Shown here in pieces: positions 19,516-28,720 of a stretch of DNA of 64,000 nt; positions within the stretch are counted from its first letter, which is position 1, and each line of letters opens with the position of its first letter. The notes beneath the pieces are model-generated. The model did not search any database. It saw only the letters and a program-made list of their open reading frames with translations, and was not told the origin of the DNA. The stretch comes from Bdellovibrionia bacterium. Lineage in GTDB: Bacteria > Bdellovibrionota > Bdellovibrionia > Bdellovibrionales > JAGQZY01. The translations under genes were made by a program, and so were the position numbers. Location of the stretch: the NCBI GenBank assembly GCA_030427805.1, contig JAUICP010000001.1:620001-684000 (forward strand), written 5' to 3'.

Positions 19516-20028
19516 GTGACTGCAGAAAACGAAGAGTTTGAACTTGAGCGCGAAAAGCTTGCCGATGCCATCGGTGAGTTTGTTAAGTACTGGGGTTTTA
19601 AGTCGATCCACGGACGAGTCTGGCTCTATCTTTTTACGGCTGAAGAACCGATGACGGCCAGTCAGCTTGTCAAAAAGCTCGGTGTTACTAAGAGTTTAGT
19701 GAGTATGGTTTTAGCCGAACTCCTTGAGTATAAGGTTATTGAAAAAGTCGATATCGGTAGCATTAAATCACCGGGTTATGTGAGTGTTTTGGATCTAGAG
19801 CAGGCCATTTTCGGTGTACTTCGCAAGCGTGAACGTCCGCTTCTCGCCAAAATATTAAAACAAATTGAGTCATTTAGATCCCAGCCAGAGCTTTCCAAAA
19901 CTCTAGAGACTCGAATTAAGCATCTTGAGAAAATGACAAGCTATGCAATCGATGCTATGAACCGCCTTTTAAATGCGAAGGCTATTACCACCTCAAAATT
20001 AAAGCTGCTACTGAAGCTGAGTCGATAA
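19516..20028 (+). CDS. GbsR/MarR-type winged-helix regulator
   Basis: A 170-residue DNA-binding protein. The segment GRVWLYLFTAEEPMTASQLVKKLGVTKSLVSMVLAELLEY is, read in parts, a standard winged helix-turn-helix (residues about 34-75), and the leading EFVKYWGFKSIHGR is the GbsR-family signature. Start GTG 19516 follows AGGA. Its TAA overlaps the ATG of the polyprenyl synthase (TAATG), so it probably controls its own operon, including the prenyltransferase at 20972. The ligand is unknown. Confidence 0.8.
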   Translation: MTAENEEFELEREKLADAIGEFVKYWGFKSIHGRVWLYLFTAEEPMTASQLVKKLGVTKSLVSMVLAELLEYKVIEKVDIGSIKSPGYVSVLDLEQAIFGVLRKRERPLLAKILKQIESFRSQPELSKTLETRIKHLEKMTSYAIDAMNRLLNAKAITTSKLKLLLKLSR

Positions 20029-20975
20029 TGGATTTAAGTAAATTAAAAATATATGATTCAAAGGACTTTCCTTCTTACCTACCGAAGCTGAACCAGCTCT
20101 ATGATGATCTTTTTTCGGGAGGAAAGGGATTTCGTTCAAAATTAATTAAGAAAGTCGGGGAAGCTATTTCTCTGGATTCAAAGTCGATCCATTTATTGGG
20201 ACAAACTATTGAGTTCATTCATAATGCCTCGTTACTGCATGATGATCTTATCGATCGGTCTCATTTGCGTAGGGGAAAGACCACCGCTTGGTTGCGGTTT
20301 ACCCCCGAGTACGCGGTTTTAGCTGGTGACTATTTACTAGCGCGAGTTATGGTTAACCTTTCAAAGTATGGGAATATCAATCTCATTCAGTATACGGCTG
20401 AAATGATTTCGGACCTCCTAGAAGGGGAGTGGATTCAAGACTCACTCGTCGGGGATTTTGAAATTGGAAAAGATCAATTAGATCGCGTTCATGAATTGAA
20501 AACGGCTTCACTTTTTAAGTGGTGCCTTCGCGCACCTCATATCGCCAAAGAAGACTACCGAAAGGAACTTCACAACCCCCTTGAACAAATGGGGAGTATA
20601 CTTGGAATTCTTTTTCAAAGAAGTGATGACTTACTGGATTTCGATATTCGAAACGGTGAAAACAAGGCCGTTCTAGGGGATCTAAAGTCGGGTTACTTGA
20701 ATTCTTTTGGTGTTTACCTTTTTAAAGGATTGGACGCAGAAACTCGTGCCAAAGCCATTAAATCTGAGAGTCTTGGCCAGTTGATAAATACAATTGGGCA
20801 AGATCACTTTGACACACGGGTCGCTTCTTTTGATGAAAAGAATGAAGAGTTAATTCAGTTTTATGAGCATCAATTGAGTTTGGTGGAGTCGGCTCTGGAT
20901 GCCGAATCCCAATCCTTGGTTGGAGAGTTAAAGCCTCTTTCGGACCTTCTCTATTGGAGAAATCAAAAGCCTTGA
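20028..20975 (+). CDS. trans-Polyprenyl diphosphate synthase
   Basis: Chain-elongating isoprenyl synthase that would make the side chain for menaquinone. Family motifs: GGKGFRSKL, first Asp-rich motif LLHDDLID (72-76) with RRGKTTAW, AGDYLLARV, and second motif QRSDDLLDFD. At 315 residues it resembles octaprenyl/heptaprenyl synthases (IspB/HepT type); the product length cannot be read from sequence alone. It sits between the GbsR-like regulator and a UbiA-family gene with overlapping junctions on both sides. Confidence 0.88.
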   Translation: MDLSKLKIYDSKDFPSYLPKLNQLYDDLFSGGKGFRSKLIKKVGEAISLDSKSIHLLGQTIEFIHNASLLHDDLIDRSHLRRGKTTAWLRFTPEYAVLAGDYLLARVMVNLSKYGNINLIQYTAEMISDLLEGEWIQDSLVGDFEIGKDQLDRVHELKTASLFKWCLRAPHIAKEDYRKELHNPLEQMGSILGILFQRSDDLLDFDIRNGENKAVLGDLKSGYLNSFGVYLFKGLDAETRAKAIKSESLGQLINTIGQDHFDTRVASFDEKNEELIQFYEHQLSLVESALDAESQSLVGELKPLSDLLYWRNQKP

Positions 20976-22030
20976 AACCCGAGTTCGTTAGTTTAAAAAG
21001 AAATACCCTGGAGCTGAATTCCTACCTTTCTGGCCGCTTTTCGAAAGAAAAAAGAGCGATACCTGTTCGAAGTTCTTTTAATTCATCGAGCGATCACATG
21101 TCTTTTAAAGTCGTCGGGCGAAATGAAATAGAAAAACCAAGGGGATTATTTGTATTCCTTAGCCTGGTTAAGCCCCTTCACCTTTCGCTTTCTTTAATGA
21201 GCATTTCTTCAGCACTCTATTACGTTGGATTGGATCAAATCAATTTGCCTTTAATAGGCTCTTGTATCACGGTCGTTTTACTTCATATGGCAATGAACTT
21301 ATTAAATGATTACAACGACCATATGAGTGGACTGGATATCGCCCATCAATACAAGGGAAGCCGGGCCATCCAAAAGGGTTGGATGAGAGCCATTGATGTC
21401 AGAAATTTGAGTCTTTTACTCTTTTCTCTGGCGGTTGCCATCGGACTCTTTGTCTTATTGACTGGTGAGAGGACTCTCCTTTTCTATGCCCTAGCGGGAT
21501 TATTTAGCTTATTTGTTTTTTCAAAATCGACGACAAACCGGCCCGTGGTTGGCTTAGAAGAGATTGTGTCGTTTATGTTAATGGGCCCGATACTTTTTCA
21601 CGCCCTTTTAACTACGGCAGGATTTGGATGGAACTATTCGAGTCTCAGTCTATCTGTGTTTATTGGTATGAATGCCAGTATTTATTTTCATCTATCAAAG
21701 TGGTCGAGCCTATTTGATGACAATAAGTCCAATAGAAAATCTACGGCATTGAAGCTTGGGGTTGATTTTTCGAAGTTGGCAAGCCAGGTATCGATTTTAT
21801 TAAGTATAGTCCCTCTAGCTCTGTTTATCTATTTTTCTGATAGTCAGGTCAGTCACTACGTTATCATAGCCGTCTACGGGATCTTCTCTGTGAAGTGTCT
21901 CTTCTTGATCGCTAAGGTGCAATCCTCTTTTTCGTCGAAGCTACGAGAAGTGAAGACCCAGTACCTTATTCACTCCCATTTAGTGGCGTTACTTTTTCTA
22001 GTAGGACTTTTGACTCAAGTTCTTAGTTGA
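20972..22030 (+). CDS. Second UbiA/MenA-like prenyltransferase
   Basis: A UbiA-superfamily integral membrane protein with eight or so hydrophobic segments. The Asp-rich site NDYNDHMSGLD followed by KGSRAIQKGWM closely resembles E. coli-type MenA, unlike the menA at 15171. A second polar site SLFDDNKSNRKST is present. About 50 polar residues precede the first membrane segment, an unusual extension. TTG 20972 overlaps the upstream TGA and has GGAG 12 bases before it; TTG 20954 is an alternative. The acceptor may be DHNA or another ring. Its 3' end overlaps the opposing gene by 8 bases. Confidence 0.75.
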   Translation: MKPEFVSLKRNTLELNSYLSGRFSKEKRAIPVRSSFNSSSDHMSFKVVGRNEIEKPRGLFVFLSLVKPLHLSLSLMSISSALYYVGLDQINLPLIGSCITVVLLHMAMNLLNDYNDHMSGLDIAHQYKGSRAIQKGWMRAIDVRNLSLLLFSLAVAIGLFVLLTGERTLLFYALAGLFSLFVFSKSTTNRPVVGLEEIVSFMLMGPILFHALLTTAGFGWNYSSLSLSVFIGMNASIYFHLSKWSSLFDDNKSNRKSTALKLGVDFSKLASQVSILLSIVPLALFIYFSDSQVSHYVIIAVYGIFSVKCLFLIAKVQSSFSSKLREVKTQYLIHSHLVALLFLVGLLTQVLS

Positions 22031-23321
22031 TAGAACGACTGAGTTCTCTGTGTAGAGTTTCTTCGCTCGCACGTATTGCTTGAATCATTTCTTCGAAACG
22101 CGAGCGATCCTCAAGGGTAGAGAGAGTATCTTGATTGGCAGAGTAGGTTTCTTGGGAAAGAGTATTGGATTGGGCAATAATGTTGGCCATTGCTCTTTTA
22201 AGGTCTTCTCTTTTTTCAGCGATGTCGGTTTCAGCAGCTTGTCTTGCAAGACGAGCATGATGACCACTGAGACGATTTTGTCTATCTTCGAGTTCAGTCA
22301 ATCGAGCCTGAATGGTCATTAACCCGGTAATCTTTCTCGTGGCGTCTAATATAAGGTCAAAACTTAGGTTGAAAAAGTGACCAGAGATTTCGGCTTGATG
22401 AGCTTTATAGGCGCGGTAGATTCCATAATAATCGACTAGAAACTGCCGAAAATCTAAATGACCGGCTTTTAGATTGAGTGTCGAGGAGTAACCCCTTTGA
22501 TACCATTCGATGATCTCTTTGAGTCTACCGATTCTTTGCTGATTCCAAGGTGAATCTTCGTAAGATTCAAGTGTTTCTAAAATATAACTGACACCATCTT
22601 TTGGCCTGAGATCTCTTAATTTTTTTCGATCAATATTCAAGTTGGGTACTTCTCTAAGGATCATACGACCAACTTGCAGAAATATAATATTGTATATTCT
22701 CAAACCTTGATCGATCTTGGCAATTTGGCGATCCACATCATCCATGGTTTCGGTGAGTATGCGCATGGACGAATCTATTAAGGTGTATGATTTGGAAAGG
22801 TCTTCGTTAATTCGTTTTATTGCTTCGCCTAGAGTAGCGAGTTGAGCGTGGATTTCCATCATCGGAGCCTTTTCCTCTTCAGCGCCACGAAATCGAGCCC
22901 ATCTTTGGCGAATTTGATCCCGAGTTGATTCCCCTTCGCTCATTCTGCGAAATTGTCTTTCTAGAGAGAGTTCCCCGATAGCCTCCATCGCCTTGTCTTT
23001 GGCGTCTTTGATGCTCATTGATAGCTTACGAATTCCTTCTAGGTCGAGGTCTAAAGCTCTGCGAGTCATTCCACCATTCGTCAAGGTGTAGACACTGATA
23101 ATTTCTCGGCTGCTATCCCTTTGAAATTCGAGGGACTCAACTCTGAAGCTTGAAACAAAGGGACTCATGTCTCGCAATATTTTAGAGGCCATCTGATGGG
23201 CGGGATCGAGGCCAGCCTCACAACGACCCACCAAAAGTCCTCTCATACTTGCGTCTTCAGCAAACACCAAGGGTGAGATACACATAGTAAAAATAAATGT
23301 TAACAATATACTTTGTTTCAC
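22023..23321 (-). CDS. Exported helical/coiled-coil protein, partner of secreted AAA+ protein
   Basis: A 432-residue protein with signal peptide (ILLTFIFTMCISPLVFA, cleavage near A21/E22). The mature part is almost wholly charged alpha-helix with probable coiled coils at about 140-200 and 330-425. It has one cysteine after the signal, in GRCEAGL (C34). No catalytic motif or known family is apparent. It begins 11 bases after the stop of the secreted AAA+ gene, so the two are co-transcribed and presumably work together, perhaps as adaptor or scaffold. Exported status is an inference from the signal peptide. Confidence 0.65.
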   Translation of the reverse strand: MKQSILLTFIFTMCISPLVFAEDASMRGLLVGRCEAGLDPAHQMASKILRDMSPFVSSFRVESLEFQRDSSREIISVYTLTNGGMTRRALDLDLEGIRKLSMSIKDAKDKAMEAIGELSLERQFRRMSEGESTRDQIRQRWARFRGAEEEKAPMMEIHAQLATLGEAIKRINEDLSKSYTLIDSSMRILTETMDDVDRQIAKIDQGLRIYNIIFLQVGRMILREVPNLNIDRKKLRDLRPKDGVSYILETLESYEDSPWNQQRIGRLKEIIEWYQRGYSSTLNLKAGHLDFRQFLVDYYGIYRAYKAHQAEISGHFFNLSFDLILDATRKITGLMTIQARLTELEDRQNRLSGHHARLARQAAETDIAEKREDLKRAMANIIAQSNTLSQETYSANQDTLSTLEDRSRFEEMIQAIRASEETLHRELSRSIN

Positions 23322-23332
23322 AAATTCATACC

Positions 23333-26300
23333 TTATTGCGCAAGTGTCCCAATGATGTCTTCACAAGTCATGGGCACGTATGCAGCACTTTCATAACGTG
23401 GTGTTCTCGCTTCAAGTGACCCAAAGGATTCACTTTCGATGCGATTTAAATCCTTATCCAATTTAAAGAGTCTGAATTCATCATTTTCGAAGTCGAAATC
23501 GATAATGTCATTTCTGGTAATACTTCCTTGAGAAAGTAGATTCCTGATGGGGCCAACTACAGAATTTCTTAATACTGAAGCCACATTGGCAGCATCTCTG
23601 GTGCGGTTAATACTTAATTTTGCAAGATGCTCAATCGCTGAATCAGAGAGTCGAACATCAACTCTCAGATATTCGCGCAAGGCTTTCCCAAGGTCGTGAA
23701 CAAAAATAGCACGTACTAAGTCTTTGTAGTCCTGATCGTTAAAGTTATTAGCATAACCAATGTAATTAAGACGACGTAAAAAGGCTTGGGCGTATTGTCC
23801 ACTGTCGAGTTCTTCTAGCATTTGTCTTAAAGAATCAGTTTGCTCCTGACTATTTTCAGAGTGAAGGGCTCTAAACATAAGGGCACGATACCGTTCTCGA
23901 CCCTCGAGGCTGTCTGGATCAGCTTCGCTATTAAGGATTGCCGTAGCACTTTCTGCGAGATCTGGAAACATTTGCAGCAATTGCTCGAGTGAATTGGCCG
24001 ACATAAAAATTCTAAAGTTTCTAAAATCGAGTCTTTTTCCTCTTTTATTTCGCGTAATTCCTTCTCTTAAAAGCGGGTAAAAGAATGATTGAAGTATCGC
24101 TGGATCAACTTTATCGATCTCGTCGAAGTTAATCACACCTTCACTACACTTCTCTTGAGCCTCGTAGAGTTCGCCCTCTCCATCTTTGTAACCATTGGGT
24201 GAACCTAAGTAAGTATTGATATCGGCTTCAGACTTCGCTTGGCCAATGGGAAAGTCGAAGAAGCAATCGGGATCAAGGGTATCACCAATGATTTTAGGAA
24301 GTTCTGATTTACCTTTAGTTGAGCCACCGAGGAAAAAGGCTGAATAGACGGGGCCTTTATCTGACATTCGACCATTTCTCTCCATTTCCATGATTGCCGA
24401 AACAAAGTGACGTTGACCAACATATCTTTCGCTAATGGCCTCTTCAATTCTTCTGAGTCGATCTTCAGGTGTTTCGAAAACCGAGATAAGGCTTTCATAA
24501 CTTTTATTGGTCGCGCGAGCCAAAGTCTCAATCAACTCTTGTCGCCCGAGAGTAGGACCCATGTCTTCGGGCCAGTTCTCTCCCAGAGCCTCTTGAAGTT
24601 GGCCGAAGACATCTTGTGAATGTCCACGTGCTTCAGCAATTCTAGAATCAGCCTCTTGAATAGTTTGTGTTAATCCGAGGTAAGAAACATTGTATCCGCC
24701 CTTGAAGGCTTCGGTAAAAATCGCATTGAGCATTCCCATAATCTGCTGATAAATCGTATCGAGAACATCAGCGGGATAGGTCTCATTTGATAGATATTCT
24801 TGCATGAGTAAAGTAACATTTGTTTCGGCATTCTCGATAGGTTGAGATCCTGTATCACCCATGCCTAATTCGTAGGACTTTTCAAAAAGCTTCTCGATAA
24901 ATTCAAGGCCTTTTGCATCGTTAAATTGAGAGATCCTCATGTGCAGACCTAGTCGCAGTTGCGTCCAGTAGGGTGCCAAACGAATTTCTAGTTGGGTTCG
25001 AGTTCTTTGGGCCTGAGATCGAGCGTTTTGTGTATTTGAAATATAGTCGTCATTTTGCTGGAGAAAATCAAAGGCTTCTTCGTATCCTTCGAGCCATTTT
25101 TCGACGGCTGCCATTTCTTCGCGAATTTGTGAGATATTTGCGTTGATTTTATCTCTCTCGCGATCGGCAAGGGGGCCCTGTTCGTTGTCGAGCCCAGCAA
25201 GTTCAAGTTGAAGCTTTGCGATCTCTCTTTCTAAAAATTGGACGCGTTCAGATTTTCCGCTAATTCTATTTTCGTAGCGACGGTGAATGGCTCTTTCAAC
25301 AATCTCGATCGCTTGCCCTGGAAAGTTTTCTGCACCAATTCTTAGTTCCATCACATTAACAAGGTCGCGAATGGCCTCTCTGCTGACACTAATTCCGTAT
25401 TCTTCTTCGAGAGGGGCTACTCTTCTAAAGATAATATCGACCACTTCATCTTTACTGAGGTGGGGTTGCTCGCGACTTTCAAGAGTCAGCTGGACACCGT
25501 CTTTGACAAATATATTATCAGTTTCCTGTCCTATTAAAAGAATTGGTATATTTCTGTTTTTTGATATTTGCGTGAGAACCTTATCAAGGTGGGTTCTTTG
25601 TAGGGCTGGGTTACTAATGTCTACTGCGATGATAACATCGTTTTGGTATTCCTCGAGTTCATCCGTCAGTGCAATAAGTCTATTATTAACATCACCTTTT
25701 TGCAGGTGTTTAGGCAATTTGTGATTATCGCGTGATAACTCTTCGAGATCGAGCCTGATGACCCTTCTGCCTCTAAGACGAGAAGGGATATTCCCTTCTA
25801 TAATCCGGTTTGCAATTTCGTAGGGGATTAAAGTCTTTCCCTGTCCAGCATCACCGTGAACGAGGAAGTAGGGGTTTTGTCGTGAACTGAGAGTTGTGGC
25901 GACAGAACCAATATACTCATCTCGATAAAATGGGCGATCTGTGAATTGCTCAAAGTAAACTTGTTCCGTGAGATCATCAAAAAATGTTTCGATAAGAACA
26001 CCTTTGAGTTGCTCTTTTAGTTTATCGAGAGTTCTTTTTCCCTGTTCTTCTACTTGCTCGCTGGCTTGGCCATTGGCGCGGGCTGTTTCTAATTGTTGAT
26101 TGACCTTCTCAATTTTAATAAGAATAGGCAGATTAGCTATTCTCCAGGGGGCCGAAGAAAAATCTCTGAACTCTGGGGCCCGTTGGGGAAGAGTAATTCC
26201 ATTAACTGTACTCGTTCCTTGTTGGCGAACTGCCTGTGGAGCTACAGGTGGAATCACGGGAGCATCAACTAAATCAACTTCTGGAGAAAGTTCCCTGATC

Positions 26301-26632
26301 AAATCGGACTCTTCGGGGCCAGTCTGGGTTGATACCGATGGACCCGGAGCAGTTTCTTCCTCATCTGTTTCTACGGTGGCATCTATTTCGATGGGCGCAG
26401 TTTCTGCTTCGTCACCAGAAGCTGCCGGCTCAGCTGCGGACTCGCCACCAAAGGTTTCGGTATTAATTCCTAGGTTACCGAGTAAGTCAGAAAGACTATC
26501 ACCGTCCTCTTGGGCTATTGCAGTTTGCGAAAAACTGAGCATTGCTATGACATATATATAGACAAGACTCTGAGCGATGAGTTTCACATCAAAGATCCTA
26601 ATCAGTTTTTTAAATAGAAAATTCGCAATCAT
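23333..26632 (-). CDS. Predicted exported Hsp100/Clp-like double AAA+ ATPase
   Basis: 1099 residues. The N-terminus has a long basic region, hydrophobic core (about 18-38) and AIA/Q cleavage site near 40, then an acidic, Pro/Ala-rich linker (about 45-135). AAA domain 1: Walker A GDAGQGKT (260-267), Walker B VIIAVD (333-338) where the catalytic Glu is replaced by Ile. Middle coiled coil about 463-550. AAA domain 2 is ClpB-like: ERYVGQ, Walker A GGSTKGKS (769-776), pore-loop-like NGYKDGE, Walker B INFDEID (834-840), sensor-1 N880, arginine finger FLRRL (951-955). Domain 2 should hydrolyse ATP; domain 1 may only bind it. An ATPase outside the cytoplasm would be remarkable; the signal could instead be a membrane anchor. 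Confidence 0.8.
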   Translation of the reverse strand: MIANFLFKKLIRIFDVKLIAQSLVYIYVIAMLSFSQTAIAQEDGDSLSDLLGNLGINTETFGGESAAEPAASGDEAETAPIEIDATVETDEEETAPGPSVSTQTGPEESDLIRELSPEVDLVDAPVIPPVAPQAVRQQGTSTVNGITLPQRAPEFRDFSSAPWRIANLPILIKIEKVNQQLETARANGQASEQVEEQGKRTLDKLKEQLKGVLIETFFDDLTEQVYFEQFTDRPFYRDEYIGSVATTLSSRQNPYFLVHGDAGQGKTLIPYEIANRIIEGNIPSRLRGRRVIRLDLEELSRDNHKLPKHLQKGDVNNRLIALTDELEEYQNDVIIAVDISNPALQRTHLDKVLTQISKNRNIPILLIGQETDNIFVKDGVQLTLESREQPHLSKDEVVDIIFRRVAPLEEEYGISVSREAIRDLVNVMELRIGAENFPGQAIEIVERAIHRRYENRISGKSERVQFLEREIAKLQLELAGLDNEQGPLADRERDKINANISQIREEMAAVEKWLEGYEEAFDFLQQNDDYISNTQNARSQAQRTRTQLEIRLAPYWTQLRLGLHMRISQFNDAKGLEFIEKLFEKSYELGMGDTGSQPIENAETNVTLLMQEYLSNETYPADVLDTIYQQIMGMLNAIFTEAFKGGYNVSYLGLTQTIQEADSRIAEARGHSQDVFGQLQEALGENWPEDMGPTLGRQELIETLARATNKSYESLISVFETPEDRLRRIEEAISERYVGQRHFVSAIMEMERNGRMSDKGPVYSAFFLGGSTKGKSELPKIIGDTLDPDCFFDFPIGQAKSEADINTYLGSPNGYKDGEGELYEAQEKCSEGVINFDEIDKVDPAILQSFFYPLLREGITRNKRGKRLDFRNFRIFMSANSLEQLLQMFPDLAESATAILNSEADPDSLEGRERYRALMFRALHSENSQEQTDSLRQMLEELDSGQYAQAFLRRLNYIGYANNFNDQDYKDLVRAIFVHDLGKALREYLRVDVRLSDSAIEHLAKLSINRTRDAANVASVLRNSVVGPIRNLLSQGSITRNDIIDFDFENDEFRLFKLDKDLNRIESESFGSLEARTPRYESAAYVPMTCEDIIGTLAQ

Positions 26633-26953
26633 TTCATATCCTAATATTCATTCTTATTCCTGAATCCTCGCTTCAATTGCAGCCCTTGTGCCGCTACTTA
26701 AAAAACGAAATCTAATATCTCGAAGATGGCTGTAAATTTTATGAAAGGAGTGACATTGATTGGCGCAGAACTGCGCAAATAGCGGATTGCACTATGGTTT
26801 TGGTTGCAAATTGGAACCAAAAATCGTCATCAAATGAAGTTTCTTTAATTTGAGAGCCTCATTGAATGGCATGTTCTGTGTAAATACTAGACACATTCGA
26901 AAATAAAAAGAGATCTACGGTTATTTCGTGACCTCTATTAAGGAGATTAAAAA
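26633..26953. promoter_or_regulatory. Divergent upstream region with two palindromes
   Basis: This 321-base gap separates the secreted AAA+ gene from the divergent helical-protein gene. It contains GCGCAG-AA-CTGCGC (26763-26776) and TTTTGGTT-N9-AACCAAAA (26798-26822), both perfect inverted repeats, and an AAGGAG ribosome site just before ATG 26954. No ORF of note. The palindromes are candidate operators that could coordinate the two divergent units. Confidence 0.4.
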
Positions 26954-28720
26954 ATGAAACTTACTCGACGAAATTTACGAGGCTTGCTTGCTCTAAAAAT
27001 CGCAGTTGCAAGTATTAGTATGGTAGCAAGTCATGCTGCCCACGCAGATACCCTTTCTTGTGAAGAAAGTGTTTCTGGAATTAGAAATTCTGTAATTGCA
27101 GAAATGACTGCAGAAGCTCCAGCTGGATCTGGTTCAGCTCTCGATGCTTTGATCGCAGATGCTGGTAATGATGGTGATCTTATGGCGGGCTTAGCCGGTG
27201 AAGATGGTGGAATGTGGGAAACAAATATTAATTTTGGAGATAGCACTGATACTTCAGAACTCGCTGCTGGTATGGAAGCACGGTATAGTTCTTCTCTTTT
27301 CTTACAAATTGATCAGGAATTGAGAAGATCTCGTGAGGAAGAAATTGCTGATCTAAGAAAAAAGTTAGCTGGTTTCAATGTCGCTGATCTCAGTACAATT
27401 GCTAAGATTGGTAAAGATACTTTAAGAAATTCTCAGGCCCATAGTTTTAACTCAGGAACATTAAATGAGGCACGAGAAGCGGATTTAGCTAATGCCAAGG
27501 CCATTAAAAGAGCTTTTGCTGAAATCAGTATTGTCTTAGAAAATGATATCGATACTTCAAACAGAGAAGCCATGCAGGAGGCGATCGATGCGCAATTGAA
27601 TCCAACTCGGGTTCAGGCAGCTAGAAATGGTCTTACATCTTTTATTCAAGGCGGCCAGGATGCTCTATCTAATATTATGGATTCTGCCAGCAAGATCAGA
27701 GTCACGATTCCTGGTACAGGAATGTTTAGGCGCACACAAGAAGTTGAGTTAACTGATGACGAAGCTGAAGCGATGTACAACGATCCAAATACTTCTGAAG
27801 AAGTTAAAGAAGAGATCTTCAATAAATTAAAAGTTAAGCGTGGCTCCCTTCTCGATTTCGTAAAAAATATTACAGTAAAAATTGGTGAAATGATTGATAA
27901 AGTTGACGAGGCTGCGGATCGATCAAAAGAAGAATATCGAAGAAGTATTATTCTTGAGCATCAACTCAATGATGATGTAAATGCCATTCGATTTGCCATT
28001 CACCAAGTCAATGAGGCAAAAACTAAAGTTGATGCGGCATTAGCAGCTCAGCCCCAGGGCGAGCAAGACCCAAGGCTTCTTGAAGTTGCAGGTCAGTATG
28101 GGCAAGCCCTTGAGCTTCTCAACCGTAGACTTCAAAGTCGAAGACTTCATATTCAACAAGAGCGATTGCGCAGAGAAGGTATGAAACAAGATTATGAAAT
28201 GTATGTTTCTCTTTCTATGGCCGCTCAAGAAGACCTCGAAGCCATTGAATTCCAAGTTGCTGCAAGTACGGCAAGAGCCCTTGGTGGAAGTATTGCTCGC
28301 GAATTGGCTGAGACATCTGATCATATGTCTGGTCTCGCCCATAGAATGACTGAAGATGTGGCGCAGTTTAACCACGAAACAAATATGCGAGTTCGCACCA
28401 TGGTATTTGACCGATCTGATGCCATTGAGAGAGTGGAAGAACAGATCGCTAGCCACCAAAGACGTCTTACTGAACTTGCCCAGAATGATGACGTCATTGC
28501 TGAGCGCATGTCTACATTTGATGCTAGGCAAGCCGGTGTCGATGAAGCAATTCACCAGATCGCTCAAGTTGGCGTGACTGCTGATGTTAGTGACTTCAAC
28601 TTTTCAGCTGAAGAGAATGCAGCGGGAGTTGGACCTGAAGAAGATGCAATGTTCGCCGATGTTGAAGAGGGTCTTGAGGCCGTTGAAGCTGATACGTCTG
28701 AAAGATCTGGAAGCCTCTAA
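26954..28720 (+). CDS. Exported helical protein divergent from the AAA+ gene
   Basis: 588 residues with signal peptide (LLALKIAVASISMVASHAAHA/D, cleavage near 31). After an Ala/Gly/acidic stretch (about 45-95) the chain is long charged helices with coiled-coil character to about 550, then an acidic tail. The only cysteine is in SCEESV (C36), five residues into the mature protein. No motif proves a function. The spacing of helices around LNRRLQSRRL and the following Gln-rich helix faintly recalls TelA-type helical proteins, but I would not name it so. Strong AAGGAG start and a strong terminator imply a well-expressed single-gene unit. Confidence 0.65.
   Translation: MKLTRRNLRGLLALKIAVASISMVASHAAHADTLSCEESVSGIRNSVIAEMTAEAPAGSGSALDALIADAGNDGDLMAGLAGEDGGMWETNINFGDSTDTSELAAGMEARYSSSLFLQIDQELRRSREEEIADLRKKLAGFNVADLSTIAKIGKDTLRNSQAHSFNSGTLNEAREADLANAKAIKRAFAEISIVLENDIDTSNREAMQEAIDAQLNPTRVQAARNGLTSFIQGGQDALSNIMDSASKIRVTIPGTGMFRRTQEVELTDDEAEAMYNDPNTSEEVKEEIFNKLKVKRGSLLDFVKNITVKIGEMIDKVDEAADRSKEEYRRSIILEHQLNDDVNAIRFAIHQVNEAKTKVDAALAAQPQGEQDPRLLEVAGQYGQALELLNRRLQSRRLHIQQERLRREGMKQDYEMYVSLSMAAQEDLEAIEFQVAASTARALGGSIARELAETSDHMSGLAHRMTEDVAQFNHETNMRVRTMVFDRSDAIERVEEQIASHQRRLTELAQNDDVIAERMSTFDARQAGVDEAIHQIAQVGVTADVSDFNFSAEENAAGVGPEEDAMFADVEEGLEAVEADTSERSGSL

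Follow-up and report, generated by a model that had tools for sequence, protein, structure and literature searches.

The 64,000-nucleotide window analyzed here, part of contig 6 in an 11-contig, 4.5-Mb metagenome-assembled genome (MAG; GCA_030427805.1) with the Bdellovibrionia MAG JAUHWN01 as a near relative, encodes a 1,099-residue AAA+ protein, P0001, that joins two Hsp100-type rings to a predicted signal peptide and lies between two genes for signal-peptide proteins. Judged by its motifs, P0001 is a real two-ring Hsp100 relative, and operons with predicted exported Hsp100s are a recurrent feature of the order Bdellovibrionales, of which the exact gene trio in the window is a genus-level novelty. 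Our best reading, to which we give about an even chance, is that P0001 is an Hsp100 acting outside the cytoplasm together with dedicated partners that are exported and in part inserted in a membrane; we infer both its location and its ATP supply. To our knowledge, ATP-driven protein unfolding in bacteria is held to be cytoplasmic, and a literature search with little reach into subscription papers found no description of a periplasmic or exported bacterial Hsp100.

Both AAA+ domains of P0001 (D1 and D2) match ClpB, ClpV and ClpA in Pfam, NCBIfam and the PDB (NCBIfam 1e-38 to 1e-23). The ClpB structure 1qvr is matched with E=1.7e-29, and the HSP101 structures 6e10 and 6e11 are among the sequence matches. 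The genome also encodes a separate, normal ClpB, and we read the ring motifs by aligning P0001 with this protein and with the genome's own ClpA. The alignment agrees with the D2 motif assignment of a first-pass annotation made from the sequence: Walker A (GGSTKGKS, residues 769–776), the GY pore loop (814–815), Walker B (NFDEID, D837–E838), sensor 1 (N880) and the arginine finger (R954) are present. It adds that the sensor-2 arginine of GAR has become alanine, a departure from Hsp100 proteins. D1 retains Walker A (GDAGQGKT, 260–267) and, as already noted in that annotation, lacks the Walker-B glutamate (VDIS), so that it does not share with ClpB a second complete Walker B; its pore-loop tyrosine has been lost as well. 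Two Clp-type domains in ClpB order, together with the D2 Walker motifs, pore tyrosine, sensor 1 and finger, nevertheless place P0001 with the Hsp100 proteins. The ratio of non-synonymous to synonymous divergence (dN/dS) is ~0.05 overall and ~0.005 in D1 (dN 0.0033, dS 0.73), which indicates strong purifying selection and suggests that the predicted non-hydrolyzing ring is constrained at least as much as the motor.

P0001 shares the D1–middle–D2 order and most D2 motifs with ClpB and Hsp104, whose ordinary form is cytoplasmic, but its NCBIfam scores lie far beneath every equivalog cut-off (~120 bits for ClpB, cut-off 1232), and no Clp_N domain was matched in Pfam. Its best NCBIfam score (1e-38) is to ClpV/TssH of type VI secretion, yet this amounts to 130 of 885 bits, the N-terminus is signal-like and no type VI secretion partners were recognized adjoining the gene. 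Torsins are AAA+ proteins of the Clp/Hsp100 branch in the lumen of the endoplasmic reticulum, with a single AAA domain and a need for partners; P0001 has two such domains and no Torsin match in Pfam. The first-pass annotation cited torsins as a lumenal exception among such machines, and they do provide a precedent, although not the sole Hsp100-type one; it left HSP101 unmentioned. With regard to anti-phage defense, PADLOC returned only partial AAA matches (PDC-M37B and DolB), none spanning the whole protein and none for the partners.

The N-terminus of P0001 has a basic n-region, a hydrophobic core (residues 23–34) and an AIA-Q cleavage site, followed by an acidic linker, as annotated earlier. 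To call such signals, we used a crude rule that calls for an uncharged 11-residue core with a mean hydropathy of at least 2.0, a positive n-region and small residues at −3 and −1. P0001 is one of the 8 of 9 suspected exported AAA proteins that pass, a count that takes in those through which the pattern was first noticed, whereas none of 87 ordinary ClpA/B-type relatives in the fetched loci does. The rule is permissive, in that 16 of 55 window open reading frames (ORFs) pass it, lipoproteins and membrane proteins among them. The charge of P0001 is +4 before the core and a net −5 over the 25 residues after it, and the N-terminal flank is positive in all exported-type AAA proteins checked. An AGGA lies 6 nt 5′ of the first ATG; none precedes the in-frame Met31, a start at which would remove the signal. 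The mature parts of three exported AAA proteins (P0004, P0007 and that of genome G087) contain no cysteine, a weak hint of compartment because ClpB relatives also have few (mostly one or two), and ten partner proteins have an even mature cysteine count. In P0001, C790 and C829 precede what we take, from general AAA+ topology, to be adjacent D2 strands and may form a disulfide.

The same genome (G000) encodes a second predicted exported Hsp100, P0004 (1,100 aa; L047:8144-11446), which sits between P0006 (629 aa; 5-bp gap) and P0005 (1,477 aa; 12-bp gap). Each of these two neighbors has a signal peptide and hydrophobic segments in its interior. The D2 of P0004 is complete in its catalytic motifs, sensor 2 included, and its D1 is degenerate. 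Between this operon (L047:3698-13341) and its counterpart in a congeneric MAG, G001 (L088:5121-14497), the AAA proteins are 70% identical with saturated dS, whereas the flanking partners are 92–97% identical with dS of 0.4–0.6, as if the AAA allele had been replaced by recombination in one congener. Within this fast-changing protein the D2 core is the most conserved part (dN 0.066 versus 0.24 overall). A few genes upstream of P0004, we read from the sequence a signal-peptide cyclophilin-type peptidyl-prolyl isomerase (L047:15955-16791).

Searches of 369 genomes of the phylum extended this pattern to another family and to other genera. The AAA-query searches scored two candidates per genome, so the true number of exported Hsp100s may be higher. 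A P0006 profile found G062, a genome of another family, in which a small signal-peptide gene, a P0006 homolog, an exported AAA gene (1,075 aa) and a P0005 homolog follow the same order as in G000; all three large genes are homologous between the two operons (27%, 21–26% and 28% identity). A further P0006 homolog lies at a contig end in G032. Four other genomes of the order (G019, G087, G023 and G085) encode exported Hsp100s. In the first three, the AAA gene is downstream of the same flavin adenine dinucleotide (FAD) oxidoreductase, which ppk also precedes in G019 and G023. The loci of G019 and G023 run on into signal-peptide genes, and the G087 contig ends. G019 and G087 belong to one genus, and their exported AAA proteins are 34% identical. 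A 564-aa partner in G023 is homologous to a 601-aa partner in G019 (E=1.6e-9), and hhalign weakly links a region of the large G023 partner to P0005 (E=0.001, probability 21%). G085 encodes a 1,594-aa signal-peptide protein (P0008; L086:2110-6894) in which three AAA regions, two of them retaining all Walker motifs, are joined to an FtsH-type Peptidase_M41 domain (E=4.7e-12); it gave a weak Torsin match, seen in P0008 only, and is possibly an exported AAA protease. Linked partner genes are at most 13 bp away or overlapping, and 7 of 11 of their products pass the crude rule (compared with the 16 of 55 window ORFs), the other four having signal peptides by eye. Relatives of P0005 or P0007 were not found in viral contigs. 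The D2 tree, with its very long branches and flagged long-branch joins, neither establishes nor rules out that the exported forms arose once.

Among other observations, the exported AAA operons at L125, L126, L128 and L131, which represent four genomes, are all preceded by an FAD oxidoreductase gene, mostly with ppk-like and ppx-like genes ahead of it (names read from sequence); a signal peptide is not evident in the ppk products. A 991-aa Hsp100 in G078 (L087:818-3793) was rejected as an exported member; it has no signal, is ClpC-like and looks cytoplasmic, and carries an N-terminal cysteine-rich, zinc-finger-like (McsA-like) segment ahead of its Clp-type repeats.

Among the exported members, P0001, P0004, the P0004 ortholog of the congener (ortB), P0007 and the proteins of G087 and G085 retain both Walker motifs, sensor 1 and the finger in D2, and P0004 and P0007 also have the sensor-2 arginine. 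The G023 protein has a dead D2 (GKD, LAEID) but an intact D1 (GAGKS, MIDEVH). One full Walker A/B, sensor-1 and finger site is found in seven of eight exported types, mostly in D2 and in D1 in G023. The D2 GY pore loop is kept in every member, weakened ones included, and is lost only in the extra third domain of the G085 protein. The retention of a complete site in most types and of the GY loop in all suggests that selection has maintained one working motor and contact with polypeptide.

The three window ORFs are where they had first been placed (1,099, 432 and 588 aa; Table 1), with one partner gene on the same strand 11 bp away and the other divergent across 321 bp. The trio is kept in G001, with proteins 95–96% identical to those of the window genome, and strong purifying selection acts on it. 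Both partners have signal-peptide-like N-termini and are otherwise helical in low-confidence models: AlphaFold, given two-sequence alignments, reached a predicted local distance difference test score (pLDDT) of 54 and 51, and 'helical' is the sole reading we draw. Foldseek hits of the 588-aa model were generic long-helix proteins (tektins and alpha-pore-forming toxins) at low TM-scores, which we did not use. Partner proteins had no Pfam, NCBIfam or PHROGs match and no useful match in PADLOC, PHROGs or PDB sequence searches. The earlier description of the two window partners as dedicated holds only inside the genus, since among the 369 genomes each gene is confined to G000 and G001. On conservation among relatives, which that annotation had made a touchstone of its proposal, the outcome is split: the exact trio is absent outside the genus, and operons of the same kind do occur there.

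We propose that P0001 would be a ClpB-like unfoldase exported by Sec, which would put both AAA+ rings beyond the cytoplasm, either free in the periplasm or anchored there. The motifs suggest that D1 may bind nucleotide without hydrolyzing it and that D2 would be the motor, its pore-loop tyrosine pulling polypeptides. Exported partners would act as adaptors or as a platform, a role that would fall to the two helical proteins of 432 and 588 aa at this locus and, in the sister operons, to larger ones that have signal peptides and hydrophobic hairpins. P0001 would then represent a group of exported-Hsp100 operons that diverge rapidly within the order. The combination of export signals and tight operons with exported proteins suggests that an energy-driven unfoldase may work outside the bacterial cytoplasm, for which nucleotide would have to reach the extracytoplasmic space; prey-derived ATP is speculation. 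A search for TLC/NTT nucleotide carriers found none, and its controls were equally silent.

The closest parallel in logic is the Plasmodium translocon of exported proteins (PTEX), in which the Hsp100 HSP101 unfolds and threads proteins beyond the parasite membrane, working together with PTEX150 and the pore EXP2 (PMC7355975). Both would comprise a two-ring Hsp100 beyond the plasma membrane with dedicated exported partners, which in PTEX include a membrane pore. Both rings of HSP101, however, are active and it carries an N-terminal domain, whereas P0001 has one degenerate ring and a signal peptide and linker instead; PTEX is eukaryotic, and family searches found no EXP2 or PTEX150 homolog. The likeness is one of logic only. 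That Bdellovibrionales carry a bacterial counterpart of PTEX, with an exported Hsp100 docked through exported partners on a membrane-inserted protein and threading proteins across an envelope or a prey membrane with outside ATP, seems to us very doubtful.

Several observations weigh against an extracytoplasmic unfoldase. Export signals are called by a crude sequence rule, with the circularity in its 8-of-9 figure given above. OrtB fails the rule because its hydrophobic segment lacks a clean cleavage site, and its C-terminal flank is positive. Odd cysteine counts occur in P0002, P0003, the ~220-aa small proteins and H_1444. The D2 of G062 is weakened, with a DD Walker B and no arginine finger. 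The exact trio is confined to two congeneric MAGs, and no ATP supply outside the cytoplasm is known. Comparative genomics nonetheless gives good support to an Hsp100-type machine predicted to be exported along with its partners, through the second copy, the operon shared by two families, the locus that recurs in other genera and the signal-like N-termini found on nearly all exported AAA and partner proteins; the proposal of the first-pass annotation as a whole, an unfoldase that would use ATP outside the cytoplasm, has partial support.

A different function at the same location, periplasmic quality control in which P0001 serves the cell's own envelope as a disaggregase or degradation feeder and is not aimed at another cell or at secretion, is somewhat unlikely. 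The Peptidase_M41 fusion in G085 and the exported cyclophilin-like gene near the second operon would fit it, but the rapid divergence between G019 and G087, the apparent allele replacement and the lineage-restricted partners are unusual for housekeeping. We regard as less probable a scaffold or pore-forming assembly that reuses Hsp100 rings outside the cytoplasm without ATP while the ATPase sites decay. Degenerate sites, found in the D1 of most members and in the D2 of G023 and G062, speak for it, as does the lack of a known ATP source there; nearly all types keep one complete site, however, and because that site lies in different rings in different lineages, random decay is disfavored, as it is by the conservation of the P0004 D2 core. 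A cytoplasmic Hsp100 would have ATP at hand and suits the ambiguous P0004, whose hydrophobic segment is flanked by positive charge on both sides. On this view, either the N-terminus is an anchor that stays uncleaved and is inserted the other way round (the inverted topology offered in the first-pass annotation) or translation truly starts at Met31, and the exported neighbors are there by coincidence. This alternative is improbable given the charge drop in P0001, the uniformly positive N-terminal flanks, the position of the AGGA and the recurrence of the pattern in several operons, all adjoining signal-peptide genes.

If the extracytoplasmic reading is true, recurrent exported, partner-bound Hsp100s with a conserved ATPase site would imply either that ATP can be used beyond the cytoplasm or that the rings serve a new purpose. 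The family, with two operons in one genome, would allow a parallel with the export machinery of the malaria parasite to be tested.

Table 1. Features of the predicted exported-Hsp100 locus, in window coordinates
Feature	Position	Strand	Remarks
Exported Hsp100-like protein P0001, 1,099 aa (predicted)	23333..26632	-	Signal peptide, acidic linker, D1, helical middle, D2
Signal-peptide-like segment, P0001 residues 1-40	26513..26632	-	Core 23-34, AIA-QE; crude rule, charge bias
AGGA ribosome-binding-like site	26639..26642	-	6 nt before first ATG of AAA gene; read from sequence
Acidic fast-changing linker, residues 41-165	26138..26512	-	82% identity between congeners
D1 AAA+ domain, residues ~215-470	25223..25990	-	Walker A intact, Walker-B Glu missing
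Helical middle region, residues ~471-715	24488..25222	-	First part aligns with ClpB middle domain
D2 AAA+ with small domain, residues ~716-1060	23453..24487	-	Sensor-2 Arg missing, other motifs intact
432-aa signal-peptide helical partner	22023..23321	-	11 bp downstream of AAA gene
588-aa signal-peptide helical partner	26954..28720	+	Divergently transcribed
Divergent intergenic region, 321 bp	26633..26953		Between AAA operon and 588-aa gene

Beside the trio, we read the neighbors at window positions 20028-22030 (+) as genes for a polyprenyl synthetase and for a prenyltransferase of the UbiA type; the prenyltransferase gene shares 8 bp with the end of the 432-aa gene.

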